DNA from: Halorubrum saccharovorum DSM 1137
GTDB taxonomy: Archaea > Halobacteriota > Halobacteria > Halobacteriales > Haloferacaceae
Reading direction: 5' to 3'
Assembly: GCF_000337915.1 (NCBI RefSeq)
Contig: NZ_AOJE01000012.1
Span: 1 to 64,000 of the forward strand
Length of the DNA stretch: 64,000 nt
Shown here: in pieces, positions 35,072 through 40,713 of the stretch
Layout: every line of letters begins with the position of its first letter
Numbering within the stretch: the first letter of the stretch is position 1
Notes under the pieces: generated by a model
What the model was told of the DNA's origin: nothing
Database searches by the model: none
The model's input: only the letters and a program-made list of their open reading frames with translations
Translations under genes and position numbers: made by a program

Positions 35072-35660
35072 CGGTCCCCGCCCGTGAGGTCCGCGCTCAT
35101 CACGAAGTCGGGTTCGGCCGCGACCGGGACCCGGTTCGCTCCGGTGTCGCTCACGTGCTCGACCGTCTCGGGGATCAACACCCGGGCGTCGTCGGCGTCG
35201 GCCGCGGCGGCGTCCGCGGCGATCGCGTCGTACAGCGCGCCGGCGGCGTCGACGTCGCGCCACGCGGCGACGCCGTAGGTCGCGGTCCGGGTCGGCTCGC
35301 CGTCTCCCTCGCGCTCCGTCACGCGCGTCCGGACCGCGAACCCGCCGAGCGCGCTTTCGCCGGTGACCGCGAGCAGTCGGTCCTCGGCGGCCGCGGTCGC
35401 GAGTCGCTCGCGGGTGAGCGCCGAGCACGCCCACGACTCGTCGGGGTCGAGCGCGAGCCCGCGCAGGTGGTCGCGGGCGTCGCTGTCGCTCCAGAACGCC
35501 CACGCGGCGTTCGGGTCCGGGTCGGCGAGAGAGGGGTCGGCCGGCTCGGCGTCCGTTTCGGTCGGCTCCGGCTCCGCGAACCGGAACTCCGTCGCGGGCT
35601 CGAAGCCGACCGCGCGCGACTGCCCGAGCCCCATGACGTTCCACGAGAACACCATGTTCC
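35068..35660 (-). pseudogene. GNAT N-acetyltransferase, 3' (C-terminal) half, cut off by element
   Basis: This GC-rich fragment encodes NMVFSWNVMGLGQSRAVGFEP and about 175 further residues to a stop that overlaps the next gene. It has no start of its own inside host sequence. Joined to the fragment ending at 40222-40235, the reading becomes CRNMVFSWN in frame, which is the expected uninterrupted GNAT sequence. The open frame continues into the element to a codon at 35832, so a chimeric product starting in the element is possible. The truncated half lacks the acetyl-CoA motif. Confidence 0.9.
35647..35660. repeat. Left attachment site (att core copy 1)
   Basis: GAACACCATGTTCC, matching the copy at 40222-40235 at 12 of 14 positions with an identical 8-base block ACCATGTT. 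Host sequence lies to the left and element sequence to the right. On the coding strand the core spells the codons for Asn-Met-Val-Phe of the interrupted GNAT. Confidence 0.88.
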
Positions 35661-35721
35661 AGATATACTCCAAATTATTCACAGCAAAACAACTAAGGCG
35701 GTGGCTCATTGACATGGTAGT

Positions 35722-36342
35722 ATGGGAGAACCAATACCCACTGTCGACCGTGGTGACGGAGGTAAACCAACTATCGCACTGCGAGCCAACACACCACGAC
35801 AAAAGGCTGAATGGGAACGAGCCGCCGAACAATCTGGGGAATACGACAGTGTTTCACACCTTATCAAACTCGCAGTAAGTCGGGAGCTAGCGGGAATGTA
35901 TACTAGTGACATGGGTAATGGCAGTGGTATTAGTGACCACCAATTGAATGAGGTATTAGATACACTTGAATCTCTTGAGGGGGAGGTAGGAGGGCTTAGT
36001 GAGGATATCGATGAAGCGACAACGGCCATGTATGCTAGTGAAACAACCCTCTCCGATGAGACAATCACCACTGTCTATGCCGACCTTCCAGTAGGTCCTA
36101 CACAAGCAACAACGGCACAAGCTGTCTCTGCACGGACGGATATAGACGTAGATACTGCTAGTGTTGCGCTCGGCCAACTAGCAGAAAGTCACCCCGCCGT
36201 AAAGAGACTGCCATTCAAAGACCTAGGGGAAGCGGGAGACGACGGCACTGTTACCGCCACATGGAACGGGAGGGAGATACCCATTGAAGGTGCGAGAAAG
36301 GCTGTCAAACGTCGCAACCCCCTCTACTTCAAGGAGGAATAA
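35722..36342 (+). CDS. Integrase-operon partner protein, RHH-like N-terminus
   Basis: A 206-residue protein read two bases before the integrase start. The N-terminus (KPTIALRANTPRQKAEWERA, then SGEYDSVSHLIKLAVSREL) resembles ribbon-helix-helix DNA-binding proteins of haloarchaeal plasmids and viruses. A coiled-coil-like middle (LNEVLDTLESLEGEVGGLSE) and a C-terminal winged-helix-like part (ATTAQAVSARTDIDVDTASV) follow. It probably regulates or assists recombination, as accessory genes next to SNJ2-type integrases do (inference). Codon use is AT-richer than the host's. Confidence 0.75.
   Translation: MGEPIPTVDRGDGGKPTIALRANTPRQKAEWERAAEQSGEYDSVSHLIKLAVSRELAGMYTSDMGNGSGISDHQLNEVLDTLESLEGEVGGLSEDIDEATTAMYASETTLSDETITTVYADLPVGPTQATTAQAVSARTDIDVDTASVALGQLAESHPAVKRLPFKDLGEAGDDGTVTATWNGREIPIEGARKAVKRRNPLYFKEE
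36331..36338 (+). promoter_or_regulatory. Strong Shine-Dalgarno site for the integrase
   Basis: AAGGAGGA lies seven bases before the ATG at 36345, within the last codons of the upstream gene. A canonical ribosome-binding site is notable here because most host genes look leaderless; it supports translation from an internal position of a shared mRNA. Confidence 0.75.
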
Positions 36343-36344
36343 GC

Positions 36345-37370
36345 ATGTCTCTAGATTACTGCAAACACGCAAAAGACGTGGAGAAAGTAATAGACAAAGT
36401 TCATTCACGGAAGACTGATTCCACTGCAAATCGATATGCTGGAAACATTCGAGTCTTTGCCAAGTGGTGCGACACTGACGACGCACCTATCAACAACCCC
36501 TTTGCCGCGACAGTGGTTGACATAGAAGATTTCCTATCGCACCTAGCAGACGACTTAGATTATGCGTATAAGACAGTGAACGTGTACATTTCCGCCCTCG
36601 CAGTGTTCTATGATGAGGCAGAAAAGCTTGCAGACGGTGGGAGAGGTATTCCAGACCCACGGAGAGAATCAAACAGCGACCCTCTCAATTGGGAAAACCC
36701 CGCTAGCAAAGCCACGATCCCCGACATGGAAAATGACGGAACAAAGCGGGCTAAATCTCTTGAGGGGAAAGATTATGAAGATAAGTTAACGACCGATGAG
36801 GTAGAGAAACTTGTAAAAAATGCTACCTCTCCCGTGACTAGAAACGCCGCGATTATTGAGGTTATGTATCACGGTATGCTACGTCGAAAAGAAGCGGCTT
36901 ACCTGAAAGTCAGCGACATAAACCGTGACGACAGAATAATCACAATTCGGTCTGAGGTGGCTAAGAACGGGAATAAACGCCGCGTTCCATACACAAGGGA
37001 CTTAGATAATTATCTCAGACCGTGGCTTGAGGTAGACAGAGACGCTTACGCATTAGCCCCCGACTCAGAGTATCTTTTCTTAAGTAACGAACGGGAACAT
37101 TTATCACCGTTCCATATTGGTCGAATAATCCACAACGCCGCCGAGTCTGCCAATTTGCAAGAAGTACTGTTTACGAACGCCGTGGAGCAAGAGATTCACC
37201 GCGTTACTGGCCATTCACTACGGCGGTCGGGAGCTACAAGGCGGTGGGAAGCGGGAACCGATATCTACACATTAAAACAGTGGTTAGGGCATAGTTCCGT
37301 GGATACCACAAAAGGTTACATCAACGCTGATAGTGACGAATTAATCGATAAGAATCGTAAGAATTGGTAG
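36345..37370 (+). CDS. Tyrosine recombinase (integrase)
   Basis: A 341-residue site-specific recombinase that would integrate and excise the element. The N-terminal SAM-like core-binding domain (about 1-105; NRYAGNIRVFAKWC, YAYKTVNVYISALAVFYDEA) precedes the catalytic domain. Catalytic residues are Arg in YHGMLRRKEA, Lys in VAKNGNKRRVPY, His and Arg in HSLRRSG, His in LGHSS and the nucleophile Tyr in TKGYIN. All are present, so the enzyme looks active. It sits about 0.7 kb from the left att site. Two 35-base repeats follow directly. Confidence 0.93.
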   Translation: MSLDYCKHAKDVEKVIDKVHSRKTDSTANRYAGNIRVFAKWCDTDDAPINNPFAATVVDIEDFLSHLADDLDYAYKTVNVYISALAVFYDEAEKLADGGRGIPDPRRESNSDPLNWENPASKATIPDMENDGTKRAKSLEGKDYEDKLTTDEVEKLVKNATSPVTRNAAIIEVMYHGMLRRKEAAYLKVSDINRDDRIITIRSEVAKNGNKRRVPYTRDLDNYLRPWLEVDRDAYALAPDSEYLFLSNEREHLSPFHIGRIIHNAAESANLQEVLFTNAVEQEIHRVTGHSLRRSGATRRWEAGTDIYTLKQWLGHSSVDTTKGYINADSDELIDKNRKNW

Positions 37371-37373
37371 ATT

Positions 37374-37408
37374 CTCTGAGAGCCGCACAGTCGGCTTAGA
37401 ATCGATTT
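37374..37408 (+). repeat. 35-base direct repeat, copy A
   Basis: Begins four bases after the integrase stop and matches copy B at 33 of 35 positions. Its core includes GAGAGCCGCACAGTCG. The copies are 183 bases apart start to start. They may be arm-type sites for the recombinase, regulator sites or transcription end elements. Confidence 0.93.
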
Positions 37409-37556
37409 TTACCACAACACGACCAAAACCCCTTACAGACTCAAGAAATCTACTGACGAGCCGCTGAGAAGATTACAGGCGGTAATAATCTCGGAAGTCA
37501 CGACTCAGATAAGAACGGCAAGTCTGATAGCCACCGAACAAGTCGCAACCAGAATG

Positions 37557-37591
37557 CTCTGAGAGCCGCACAGTCGCCTTAGAATCTATTT
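37557..37591 (+). repeat. 35-base direct repeat, copy B
   Basis: Second copy, with two substitutions relative to copy A (37374-37408). Both copies precede an AT-rich tract. No third copy was found by eye in the element. Confidence 0.93.
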
Positions 37592-38026
37592 GATTTCCTT
37601 CCAAGTGGGTTTCCATCATCTTCGCTCAAAGATCGATTGTGAGCCGATTGTGACGGTCTGAGCGTATCCACGTTTATCGGCGGCTCCTTACGCGTGCGTA
37701 ATTTATGCTGTATATTAACGTAAGTAATAACAGCAGGTAAGTGGAAATGCGGTCTTCAACACAGCCTTCCTTCAAGCCATAGTAAACTATGGCTTTCATC
37801 CAGTCTGTGTTTACATCCCTTATTTCTAGGCTACTCGGCCTAAGTCGAGGGCAAAGACCGTGAGGGGAGAATATAACCATGAGTAATTCACGTAGGTTGT
37901 GTTTCCCTATCGGTAGCTACCTACGTACCGCAGTGTCGGGGCTATGTGGATGAGATCTCCTAGCCGTCACCATCCACGTATCAACCAACCGACACGTTTA
38001 AGTTTGTGGGGTTCCTAATAATAATT
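37592..38026 (+). other. Non-coding stretch with consecutive stem-loops
   Basis: No gene is supported here. It contains three strong inverted-repeat structures. The first has outer arms 37758-37764 / 37805-37811 around a 9-base hairpin 37774-37782 / 37787-37795 with loop TAAA. The second has arms ACGTAGGT 37890-37897 and ACCTACGT 37919-37926. The third has outer arms GTGTCGG 37933-37939 and CCGACAC 37989-37995 around inner arms 37943-37950 / 37973-37980 with one G-T pair. Such a run suits a structured RNA or a replication origin. Confidence 0.65.
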
Positions 38027-38206
38027 GTGACCCAATTCGACATTCCCGACGTAGAACGAAAAAACCCGTGGCACTGTCCAGTCGATTTCTGTGAAAAGAA
38101 CTATGAATCGGCTCGGTCGTTGTCGTTTCACATCAATAGTCGGGGAAGTAAAGGGTGTGAGGCTCATACAGCCTTCAAGCCCGCCAATATTAACGGTCGT
38201 TCGTAG
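38027..38206 (+). CDS. Small C2H2-like zinc-finger protein
   Basis: A 59-residue reading from GTG 38027. WHCPVDFCEKNYESARSLSF followed by His, and a later CEAH, gives a Cys-x4-Cys, x12, His, x11, His arrangement close to a C2H2 zinc finger. Such single-finger proteins are common on haloarchaeal viruses and plasmids and probably bind DNA. It follows the third stem-loop by 31 bases. The GTG start gives MTQFDIPDVERKNPW; a GTG at 38006 would add seven hydrophobic residues. Confidence 0.62.
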   Translation: MTQFDIPDVERKNPWHCPVDFCEKNYESARSLSFHINSRGSKGCEAHTAFKPANINGRS

Positions 38207-38611
38207 TTCGTACAATACTGTCGGGTTTTGTCGACCGTTCTCAACCCCTCCTAATTGTAATTGTGGCGTTTTTAGGCCCTAATAATATTTCTGGAACTTG
38301 GCGGTTGTGTATCGCGTGCGCACAAGCGACGGCTATACCAAGTTATTAATATGCCTCGGGAGATTATTAATAATTTCGCACTTGCTAGTAACACCATTGA
38401 CTGAAATCGATATGGACGTATTGACCGACTAGACCGACTGAAATTTACTACAACTTCTACTTACATGAGGGGTCAGTGAACCTCGAAGGCGTACAGTCAG
38501 GTACTTCAAAAAGCGGGTTTTGTCGTCTGTCTGTATCTGAAACGGCGCTCTCATCTCTTAATGTACGCCTCTAAGGGTCACTGTCTTTTCTCTCACTTTA
38601 TACTCATAACA
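38207..38611. other. Non-coding gap with an AT-rich inverted repeat
   Basis: About 400 bases without a supportable gene. It holds a perfect 9-base inverted repeat, TTATTAATA (38343-38351) and TATTAATAA (38365-38373), separated by 13 bases. This looks like an operator or an easily melted origin element. The right-hand part (38560-38611) should carry the promoter and leader of the four-gene cluster. Confidence 0.6.
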
Positions 38612-38785
38612 ATGGTTCGTGACAATCGGGTTAGGCTTTCAGACCAAGAAAAGAATATTGTTGATATGACCAAGGAATCGTTATTCGATGAGGAAGTTCC
38701 GAGAGGCGTCGTCATTGAACGGGCTTGTCGAAATCTCATGGCAGACGACAGTGGCGGCTCGGATAACGGGGGTGTAGTTCTCTAA
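38612..38785 (+). CDS. Small element protein, RHH-like (gene 1 of four-gene cluster)
   Basis: A 57-residue protein. RVRLSDQEKNIVDMTKESLF followed by EVPRGVVIERACRNLM resembles the short ribbon-helix-helix-like proteins found on haloarchaeal viruses and plasmids. A hydrophilic tail follows. Its TAA overlaps the next ATG (TAATG). It may be the cluster's own regulator. No closer assignment is possible. Confidence 0.65.
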   Translation: MVRDNRVRLSDQEKNIVDMTKESLFDEEVPRGVVIERACRNLMADDSGGSDNGGVVL

Positions 38786-38973
38786 TGACGGATATATCCC
38801 CTTCACGTCGGACAACTACGGTGCCAATCGACTCAGAACAGTACGCCCGTCTAGCGAATCTGGGTATTGAGATAGGTCACTACGATATTAAACCCCACTG
38901 TAGACGAGATAACGCCGAATTGGTGCTTACGACACTTATCGATGTGTTTGAAGCGGAGCATATCGATGACTGA
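38785..38973 (+). CDS. Unknown small element protein (gene 2 of cluster)
   Basis: A 62-residue protein starting on the last base of the previous stop. RRTTTVPIDSEQYARLANLG has a beta strand plus helix start like RHH-type proteins, and AELVLTTLIDVFEAEHIDD is a helix. It contains a His/Cys group (HYDIKPHCRRD) that might bind metal. It overlaps gene 3 by eight bases. Function unknown. Confidence 0.6.
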   Translation: MTDISPSRRTTTVPIDSEQYARLANLGIEIGHYDIKPHCRRDNAELVLTTLIDVFEAEHIDD

Positions 38974-39238
38974 TTTAACGATTGTAGAGCGACGGATAGA
39001 CGTTCTAGACAAAGTAGAGACGGTTAAAAGCGGGCGGAACGAATATGATGGGGAGTATTTCACTGCCGTCTACCCTTCCAGTGAGTCACCACAGACCTAC
39101 GTAGTTGCTCAGTTTTCTTATGAATCAAACAACGACACTGCCGACATTCAGATTTCCGACAATAGCATCCTACTTAACATTGAGAACGGGAACGTCCTTG
39201 CCCTTGTTCCAAGTGAGGCATACGGAGGTGACACATGA
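38966..39238 (+). CDS. Unknown element protein (gene 3 of cluster)
   Basis: A 90-residue acidic, beta-rich protein with no recognised family (VERRIDVLDKVETVKSGRNE, then TYVVAQFSYESNNDTADIQI, then NSILLNIENGNVLALVPSEA). There is no signal peptide or membrane segment. It starts within gene 2 (eight-base overlap) and ends in gene 4 (ATGA), so the four proteins are probably made in fixed proportion. Confidence 0.6.
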   Translation: MTDLTIVERRIDVLDKVETVKSGRNEYDGEYFTAVYPSSESPQTYVVAQFSYESNNDTADIQISDNSILLNIENGNVLALVPSEAYGGDT

Positions 39239-39921
39239 ATATCAGTAAAGATGTAGTGGCGCAGTGCCGTGACCGTGGGGGTGACCGCCTCGAAGACCGT
39301 GACGACAGAATCGGGAATACCCTCGTGGAGGATACCCTCGGTTATCAGGAGGGTAGCTGTCTAGTCGGAGAATCGTATTCGCAGTATCCTGATAGGGAAG
39401 ACCTTGCTAATCCGCAACATGGGTCGTTCCTTCGTGAGCTACTGAGTCACGAATTAGTAGGGTCGTGGTCAGATGCTGTCAAAGAACTTACAGGTGCCCG
39501 AACGGAGGGTATGCTTCGAAAGTGGATTGATAGTCTAGAGCGTGCTAGTGAGTTACATGGGCTTGAATCGCAGGAATTGTTTGCTAACGCCCGTGAACCG
39601 CCCGAGACTCGCAAAGTAATTAGCGAGATTCTGGGCTATAAAATCCCCGACAGCATAGTAGAGACTAATAACGTTCTGCTACTGTCGGCTCTTTATGTCG
39701 AAGGTCTGAGTATTAGCGAGATTAGCGACGTGTTGGAAACGGACGAAACTAGCGTCTCTGATACGCTCAAGTCCGTGGGGTTGCTGGCGGGGGCGACAAC
39801 GGACGAATCCGAGCAATCCTTCCGCCGTCAGTATGGTGAAATCAACCGCCCTAGTGGTGGAGCAAGTGTAAATAAACAGGCTGTATCTGAGTCAGATACG
39901 GTCAAGGTCGTAAGTCGTTAG
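39235..39921 (+). CDS. Element protein with C-terminal helix-turn-helix (gene 4 of cluster)
   Basis: The largest cluster product at 228 residues. A charged N-terminus leads into helices (FLRELLSHELVGSWSDAVKE, MLRKWIDSLERASELHG). A helix-turn-helix-like segment follows, LLLSALYVEGLSISEISDVL plus SVSDTLKSVGLL. It likely binds DNA. As the biggest protein besides the integrase it is the best candidate for a replication initiator or master regulator, but no Rep motif is visible. A T6 run follows the stop. Confidence 0.65.
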   Translation: MNISKDVVAQCRDRGGDRLEDRDDRIGNTLVEDTLGYQEGSCLVGESYSQYPDREDLANPQHGSFLRELLSHELVGSWSDAVKELTGARTEGMLRKWIDSLERASELHGLESQELFANAREPPETRKVISEILGYKIPDSIVETNNVLLLSALYVEGLSISEISDVLETDETSVSDTLKSVGLLAGATTDESEQSFRRQYGEINRPSGGASVNKQAVSESDTVKVVSR

Positions 39922-39926
39922 CGGTC

Positions 39927-39932
39927 TTTTTT
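39927..39932 (+). terminator. T6 run after the four-gene cluster
   Basis: Six consecutive T residues begin six bases after the TAG stop, matching archaeal oligo-T termination. Further T-rich sequence follows within ten bases. Confidence 0.55.
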
Positions 39933-39958
39933 CACTTTCGTTATAATACTCAATAGCC

Positions 39959-40006
39959 GTAGCTGTAGTTTGCGGGAAAGTGCGCGGACGACACTGCGGT
40001 AGCTGT
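39959..40006. repeat. GTAGCTGT repeated 40 bases apart near the right end
   Basis: GTAGCTGT occurs at 39959-39966 and 39999-40006, with one mismatch if extended leftward. Forty bases is close to four helical turns, so the copies would face the same side of the DNA, as arm sites of recombinases often do. They lie about 0.2 kb inside the right att site. Confidence 0.4.
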
Positions 40007-40044
40007 CGCCGAGCCGCCAAAGAAATAGACTCATTCTGAGATTT

Positions 40045-40713
40045 TTAAAATAAATAGAACGGTGGTGTTCGGGCGGTCGCTATATGTGGGTGGATATATC
40101 TAGACGTGTTGCGGTCTGCTACCGACCCCATATAACCTACGTAACTGGCTACCATCGTCAGTATTGTCGACGGCGGGAGGGTAGGGTGTGTTTTGCTGTG
40201 TTTACAACACCACCCCCTCTTGAATACCATGTTTCGACACACCGCCGCGCCGCGGTCGCGGGCCCAGTCGAGCGCGGCCTCCGAGAGCGCGGTGCCGACC
40301 CCGGCCCCGCGGGCCGCCGGGTCGACGCGGATCCCCTGCCCCCACGCCTCCCACTCGGTGAGCAGGACGCCTTGGATGCAGCCGACGACCGCCTCCGGCT
40401 CGCCCGGGGCGGCCGCGCCCGCGCCGTCGCCCTCGACGAGAGTGTCGCCCGGGTCGCGGTCGTCGCGTCCCGCGACCGCGTCGCTCTCGGCGACCGCCGC
40501 TGGCGAGAGCGTCGCGACGAAGGTGCCGCTGTCGGAGTCGTCGGAGGCGGCCCACTCCGGGAACACGCGCGGGACGTAGTCGTCGTGGCGCTGGCCCCAC
40601 GTGTCGCGCGCGAACGCGGCGACCGCGTCGGCGTCGGCGGGGCGGGCCTCGCGGACGACGGGGACGGACGCCGAGTCTGAGGCCGGCGTCGACTCCCCCG
40701 CGTCCCCCGTCAT
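40045..40713 (-). pseudogene. GNAT N-acetyltransferase, 5' (N-terminal) half fused to element sequence
   Basis: The intact start at 40713 overlaps the gatD stop (ATGA). Host-coded residues include VPVVREARPADADAVAAFAR and the acetyl-CoA-binding GIRVDPAARGAGVGTALSEA, then end at CRNMVF in the att core (40222-40235). From there the frame reads about 60 foreign residues of element sequence (KRGWCCKHSKTHP onward) to a stop at 40045. The truncated protein keeps the acetyl-CoA site but loses its C-terminal part, so loss of function is likely. Confidence 0.9.
40222..40235. repeat. Right attachment site (att core copy 2)
   Basis: GAATACCATGTTTC, matching the left copy except at two positions. Element sequence lies to the left and host sequence to the right. 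Start-to-start distance between the copies is 4575 bases, the expected size of an excised circle. Confidence 0.88.

Follow-up and report, generated by a model that had tools for sequence, protein, structure and literature searches.

The interval under study (positions 37592-38026 of the window, the 64,000-nt stretch of Halorubrum saccharovorum DNA that was analyzed) belongs to an integrated element that is marked off by a fall in GC content from ~72% in the host to ~47% inside, by host homology that picks up again at 40222 on the right, and by a GNAT acetyltransferase gene of which one half lies on each side (Table 1). The insertion target of the element is this GNAT gene and not a tRNA gene. 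The annotation, made from ORFs and profile searches only, places a small RHH-like protein, which found no match in the Pfam scan, and a tyrosine integrase gene ahead of a noncoding region, with the hairpin stretch 3′ of the integrase gene, followed by a cassette of small ORFs that ends in a protein with a C-terminal helix-turn-helix (HTH). The preliminary description had held that the element carries no recognizable Rep gene; in agreement with this, Pfam and PHROG scans of the element recognize the integrase only, and a Rep-Arvir (PF25227) protein is absent from it. Repeats of the form CCTAAT-N4-ATT (38014-38029, 38250-38265, and 38278-38293) surround the zinc-finger-like small ORF, which may be an insertion, since the sibling element L060 lacks the ORF and has these repeats close together. 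The 13-nt sequence TACCGCAGTGTCG at 37926-37938 has an exact reverse complement at 39989-40001, close to the element's right end.

The HTH protein belongs to a family that has no Pfam entry (an AlphaFold model, with a pLDDT of 39, was unusable) and is present in 21 of the 391 Halobacteria genomes sampled by profile search, in many cases with an integrase gene ~1.5-4 kb upstream and noncoding DNA separating integrase and cassette; in L077, L125, and L133-L136 the noncoding region is filled by minus-strand proteins of 230-273 aa with a zinc-finger-like start (CPxC...H). Searches of viral and genome contigs for relatives, using the integrase or the HTH protein, returned Halorubrum persicum only (L082, the same as L060).

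Table 1. Positions of the element, its genes, and its noncoding features in the window.
Feature	Position	Strand	Remarks
Short direct repeat ACCATGTT	35651-35658 and 40226-40233		At both element ends
Integrated element, ~4.57 kb	35659-40225		Ends approximate; from GC drop, host homology, GNAT halves
Small RHH-like protein	35722-36342	+	Upstream of integrase; RHH by appearance; homologous in siblings
Tyrosine integrase	36345-37370	+	PF00589, E 6e-29
Core motif copy 1, AATCGATTCTAAGCC...	37374-37412	-	First member of direct repeat D4
Core motif copy 2	37557-37595	-	Second member of direct repeat D4
box1, ~100-bp conserved DNA element, noncoding	about 37557-37671	+	Core copy 3 at 37631; 37581-37671 in narrower bounds
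Stem CGGTCTT/AAGACCG	37750-37861	+	Encloses nested hairpin 37758-37811 plus another small hairpin
Outer arms AACACAG/CTGTGTT	37758-37764/37805-37811		Around inner AAGCCATAGT-AA-ACTATGGCTT
8-bp inverted repeat ACGTAGGT/ACCTACGT	37890-37926	+	Arms 37890-37897/37919-37926
Nested 7+8 bp stem-loop	37933-37995	+	Outer arms GTGTCGG 37933-37939/CCGACAC 37989-37995
Inner arms of this stem-loop, TGTGGATG/CATCCACG	37945-37952/37971-37978		One G-T
Possible small ORF, C2H2-like residues	38027-38206	+	Weak; zinc-finger matches below cut-off
Second noncoding block	38231-38612	+	Upstream of small-ORF/HTH cassette; conserved with siblings
boxC, CGCRCAARACAAGGCYGTTYCA	38319-38340		Inside second block
AT-rich inverted repeat	38340-38376		Inside second block
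Small ORF, first cassette gene	38612-38785	+	Homologous ORFs in siblings
Small ORF	38785-38973	+	60% identity with L060
Small ORF	38966-39238	+	Conserved in siblings
228-aa protein, C-terminal HTH	39235-39921	+	Family hallmark; candidate initiator or regulator

The left part of the interval overlaps a conserved noncoding element, box1, that holds CGATTGTGA repeats at 11-bp spacing. A core motif in and beside it, whose pattern was defined on the same data that it describes, has three copies within 260 bp out of four matches across the 64 kb; this clustering suggests a putative protein-bound site. An iteron-type plasmid origin would have clustered repeats of a binding site next to the initiator gene; the three copies lie ~1 kb from the cassette and are not in tandem. 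Related sequences are found in L064, an element integrated in a different genome of the genus, and in a plasmid of Halomicrobium urmianum (L081), with alignment p-values (Gumbel, 300 shuffles) of 7e-7 for the studied element against L064, 5e-6 for the plasmid against L064, and 1e-4 for the studied element against the plasmid. A sequence-only model, R2, was built from these three copies and scanned against 391 genomes; outside the training set its matches have E-values per genome of 2e-10, 6e-10, 5e-6, 1.5e-5, 7e-5, 5e-4, 5e-4, and 2e-3, of which the last three or four would fail on their own after multiplication by 391. Independent lineages of box1 are fewer than the matches, because a single small element type (L162-L164) accounts for the top three. 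All eight matches examined have a GC content below that of their surroundings (slightly so in L163) and recombinase genes close by. L162, L163, and L164 are integrative elements of ~3 kb that carry box1 and encode an integrase and two small ORFs; in L163 an RHH-like gene follows. When box1 of L162 was queried against 72,556 plasmids, the sole match was the H. urmianum plasmid at the box1 position, with an E-value of 0.4 that has positional value only. R2 finds no box1 in siblings with the same cassette, such as L060 and L062, so box1 is not obligatory for the cassette family.

Under looser gap scoring box1 had looked like a chance similarity, a reading overturned by stricter alignment scoring and by the independent matches. 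An IMG/VR match to a 20-mer of box1 (L137) is an AT-rich phage gene and was set aside as chance, a degenerate core pattern run over the 391 genomes was too permissive, with mostly scattered matches, and a de novo EM motif search returned low-complexity motifs only. An alignment of 11 box1 copies yields no consensus RNA structure, and in the three-sequence alignment the covariation term is positive, i.e., unfavorable. Since there is no such consensus, and since strong folding downstream is confined to the studied element, box1 behaves as a DNA element; it looks like a putative protein-binding site for plasmid upkeep, perhaps for the start of replication, rather than an RNA gene.

The H. urmianum plasmid (unnamed4, NZ_CP084094.1) is a free circle of 4491 bp in which neither an integrase nor a recognized Rep was found. 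It resembles the element in its size of ~4.5 kb, its related HTH cassette with a long noncoding region upstream, and its box1 and boxC, and differs in being free, in lacking an integrase, and in its other flanking genes, the HTH proteins being ~31% identical. Box1 is therefore not only an integration site; its presence on a plasmid without an integrase makes a pure integration role unlikely and favors one in replication or stable maintenance. A further likeness is to the haloarchaeal, integrative Rep-Arvir (PF25227) replicons of betapleolipoviruses, exemplified by SNJ2, whose origin lies in noncoding DNA with a hairpin, behind an operon that is completed on circularization (PMC13107129); the element likewise would have an operon completed on circularization and then a noncoding region with inverted repeats. 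In contrast to SNJ2, it has no PF25227 initiator, and Rep-Arvir origin motifs are absent, so that the relation is one of resemblance and not of membership. The host genome has two Rep-Arvir genes outside the element, on contigs C66 (L139) and C10 (L140), and none was found in seven hosts of sibling elements. Both resident genes have conserved downstream motifs; after that of L140 there are regularly spaced, CRISPR-like repeats of GCTTCAACCCCACAAGGGTTCGTCTGAAA. These downstream motifs are missing from the window or match with 3 mismatches at best, which is chance level, and their absence led us to reject a host Rep-Arvir origin acting in trans.

A second conserved block lies directly upstream of the cassette, where local alignment gives z-scores of 13.5 against L060, 8.0 against L126, and 4.5 against L062. 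It contains boxC, which is found in six elements (the studied element, L062, L078, L124, L126, and the free plasmid L081) by a pattern written after the sequences had been seen, with a shuffle mean of 0.03 at ≤4 mismatches. In all six, boxC sits ~210-290 bp upstream of the cassette. The cumulative GC-skew minimum falls at the boundary between noncoding region and cassette, at 38613 in the element and at 1802 in the plasmid, and is confounded by gene direction.

The stem-loops lie between these two conserved parts. The preliminary description had reported three inverted-repeat structures, all of which are in place (Table 1), and had proposed folding against shuffled controls as a check; the observed fold is indeed stronger than that of dinucleotide shuffles. 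For 37592-38026, z is −4.1 on the + strand as RNA (0/100 shuffles as good) and −2.1 on the − strand (4/100); for 37740-38000, bounds picked after the fold had been seen, it is −5.1 on the + strand (0/200), −3.2 on the − strand (0/200), and −3.65 as ssDNA (1/200). When 23 noncoding regions of related elements were tiled without bias in windows of 200 nt, the best one from the studied element (z −3.7) ranked 16th of 408, so its folding is strong and not exceptional. The sibling noncoding region L130 (4113-4990, oriented) folds to an extreme degree on both strands, with z down to −7.7. Conservation is confined to the flanks: for 37665-38030 no convincing homologue was found among 22 sibling noncoding regions, local alignment against shuffles gave a p-value of 0.8 with the H. 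urmianum plasmid, and the hairpin at 37933-37995 weakly resembles hairpins of L060 (p 4e-3). A single-sequence covariance model of 37740-38000 matched only itself in 170 family genomes under strict filters. Downstream of box1, ten other elements show no common excess of folding; L064 has a weaker trend, and the mean z over the carriers excluding the studied element is −0.74. The downstream hairpins are thus, as far as these comparisons reach, peculiar to the studied element. A mobile repeat was rejected, as the genome contains the region only once, and an iteron-like CTCTKAGARCCG was only modestly enriched (0.69 vs. 0.38 per kb).

Two alternative readings concern these hairpins. According to one, they belong to a structured, stable RNA encoded on the + strand, with a copy-control, antisense, or regulatory function, which fits the stronger folding of that strand than of the − strand or of ssDNA (z −5.1 vs. 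−3.2 and −3.65) and has a parallel in mycobacterial prophages, for which RNA-based replicons without RepA are described (PMC7157519). Those origins resemble the element as extrachromosomal replicons that lack RepA and have a cis noncoding region; they differ in being bacterial, and an RNA of the element would be a candidate only. Against a structured RNA speak the failure to find a homologue in the 170 family genomes, the lack of any Rfam match to the interval at the gathering score (a relaxed threshold gave chance miRNA matches only), the lack of a clear promoter or terminator in a search by bacterial consensus only, and the lack of comparable structure in other box1 carriers, and we consider it quite improbable. 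The other reading, that the hairpins are neutral or serve only as a terminator of integrase transcription, their structure being incidental in fast-evolving noncoding DNA, agrees with the rank in the tiling and with the lack of conservation of 37665-38030; it must contend with the rarity of comparable folding among shuffles (0/200) and with the strong structure of several siblings (z −7.7 in L130, −5.8 in L131, −5.1 in L124), and appears the least probable of the explanations weighed here.

The main rival, so ranked because several box1 copies closely follow recombinase genes, concerns box1 itself, which would be a Xer/cer-like site for site-specific recombination or multimer resolution by tyrosine recombinases of the element or the host, with the hairpins incidental. 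The distance from the recombinase stop codon to box1 is 47-58 bp in L167, L168, and L169 and 211 bp in the studied element, the closeness of box1 to the element ends in L162-L164 fits a recombination role, and in the core copy at 37374-37412 two inverted arms are separated by 6 bp (GATTCTCTGAGAGCCG-CACAGT-CGGCTTAGAATC); a plasmid that encodes no recombinase could rely on XerA of the host. A Xer or att site would be expected to have conserved inverted recombinase arms around a spacer of 6-8 bp. Like box1, the Xer sites cer and dif are noncoding, have a partial dyad, and occur on small plasmids near recombinase genes. However, box1 copies lack the clean, conserved 11-6-11 structure of such sites, most having no clean inverted arms and the 11-copy alignment showing no shared dyad, and box1 exceeds a core site in length. 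Furthermore, the attachment sites of the element are at its ends, at least 1.9 kb from box1, and R2 finds no further copy in the host genome. On this evidence a recombination site seems unlikely.

Our preference, tentative and short of an even judgment, is that the interval belongs to a region which acts in cis in the maintenance of a small haloarchaeal integrative plasmid without Rep, and which is most likely the region of its replication origin. The sequences show the place of the element, the lack of a recognized Rep, the conservation of box1 and of the block ahead of the cassette, and the occurrence of box1 and boxC on a free circular plasmid; any role in replication, as well as the identity of the binding protein, we infer. 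Once excised and circular, the element would have its cassette, with the HTH protein at the end, running into the RHH-like gene and the integrase gene, and the noncoding region would come next. The repeated core sites AATCGATTSTRAGCC, inside box1 and next to it, may then be bound by a host protein or by one of the element's own (HTH or RHH-like), and this binding would help to start or stabilize replication; the downstream stem-loops may aid strand opening, the formation of a primer or nick site, or the termination of integrase transcription. The origin could instead sit in the better-conserved block at 38231-38612. The preliminary description had suggested an origin on account of the hairpins; what carries over is the box1 part of the interval, conserved in a free Rep-less plasmid and in integrated elements, and not the hairpins themselves, which other box1 carriers do not share and whose covariance model finds only itself in the 170 family genomes.

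A broader proposal, which we hold to be doubtful, is that box1 serves as recognition site or as origin in an undescribed mode of replication, run by the conserved HTH cassette or a host factor in Rep-less haloarchaeal mini-plasmids and integrative elements, and spread across several families of Halobacteria. The replication of many archaeal plasmids and viruses is unexplained because they carry no recognizable initiator; box1 together with the small conserved cassette offers a concrete candidate for a minimal replicon, and also a marker by which elements of this kind can be traced in genomes.
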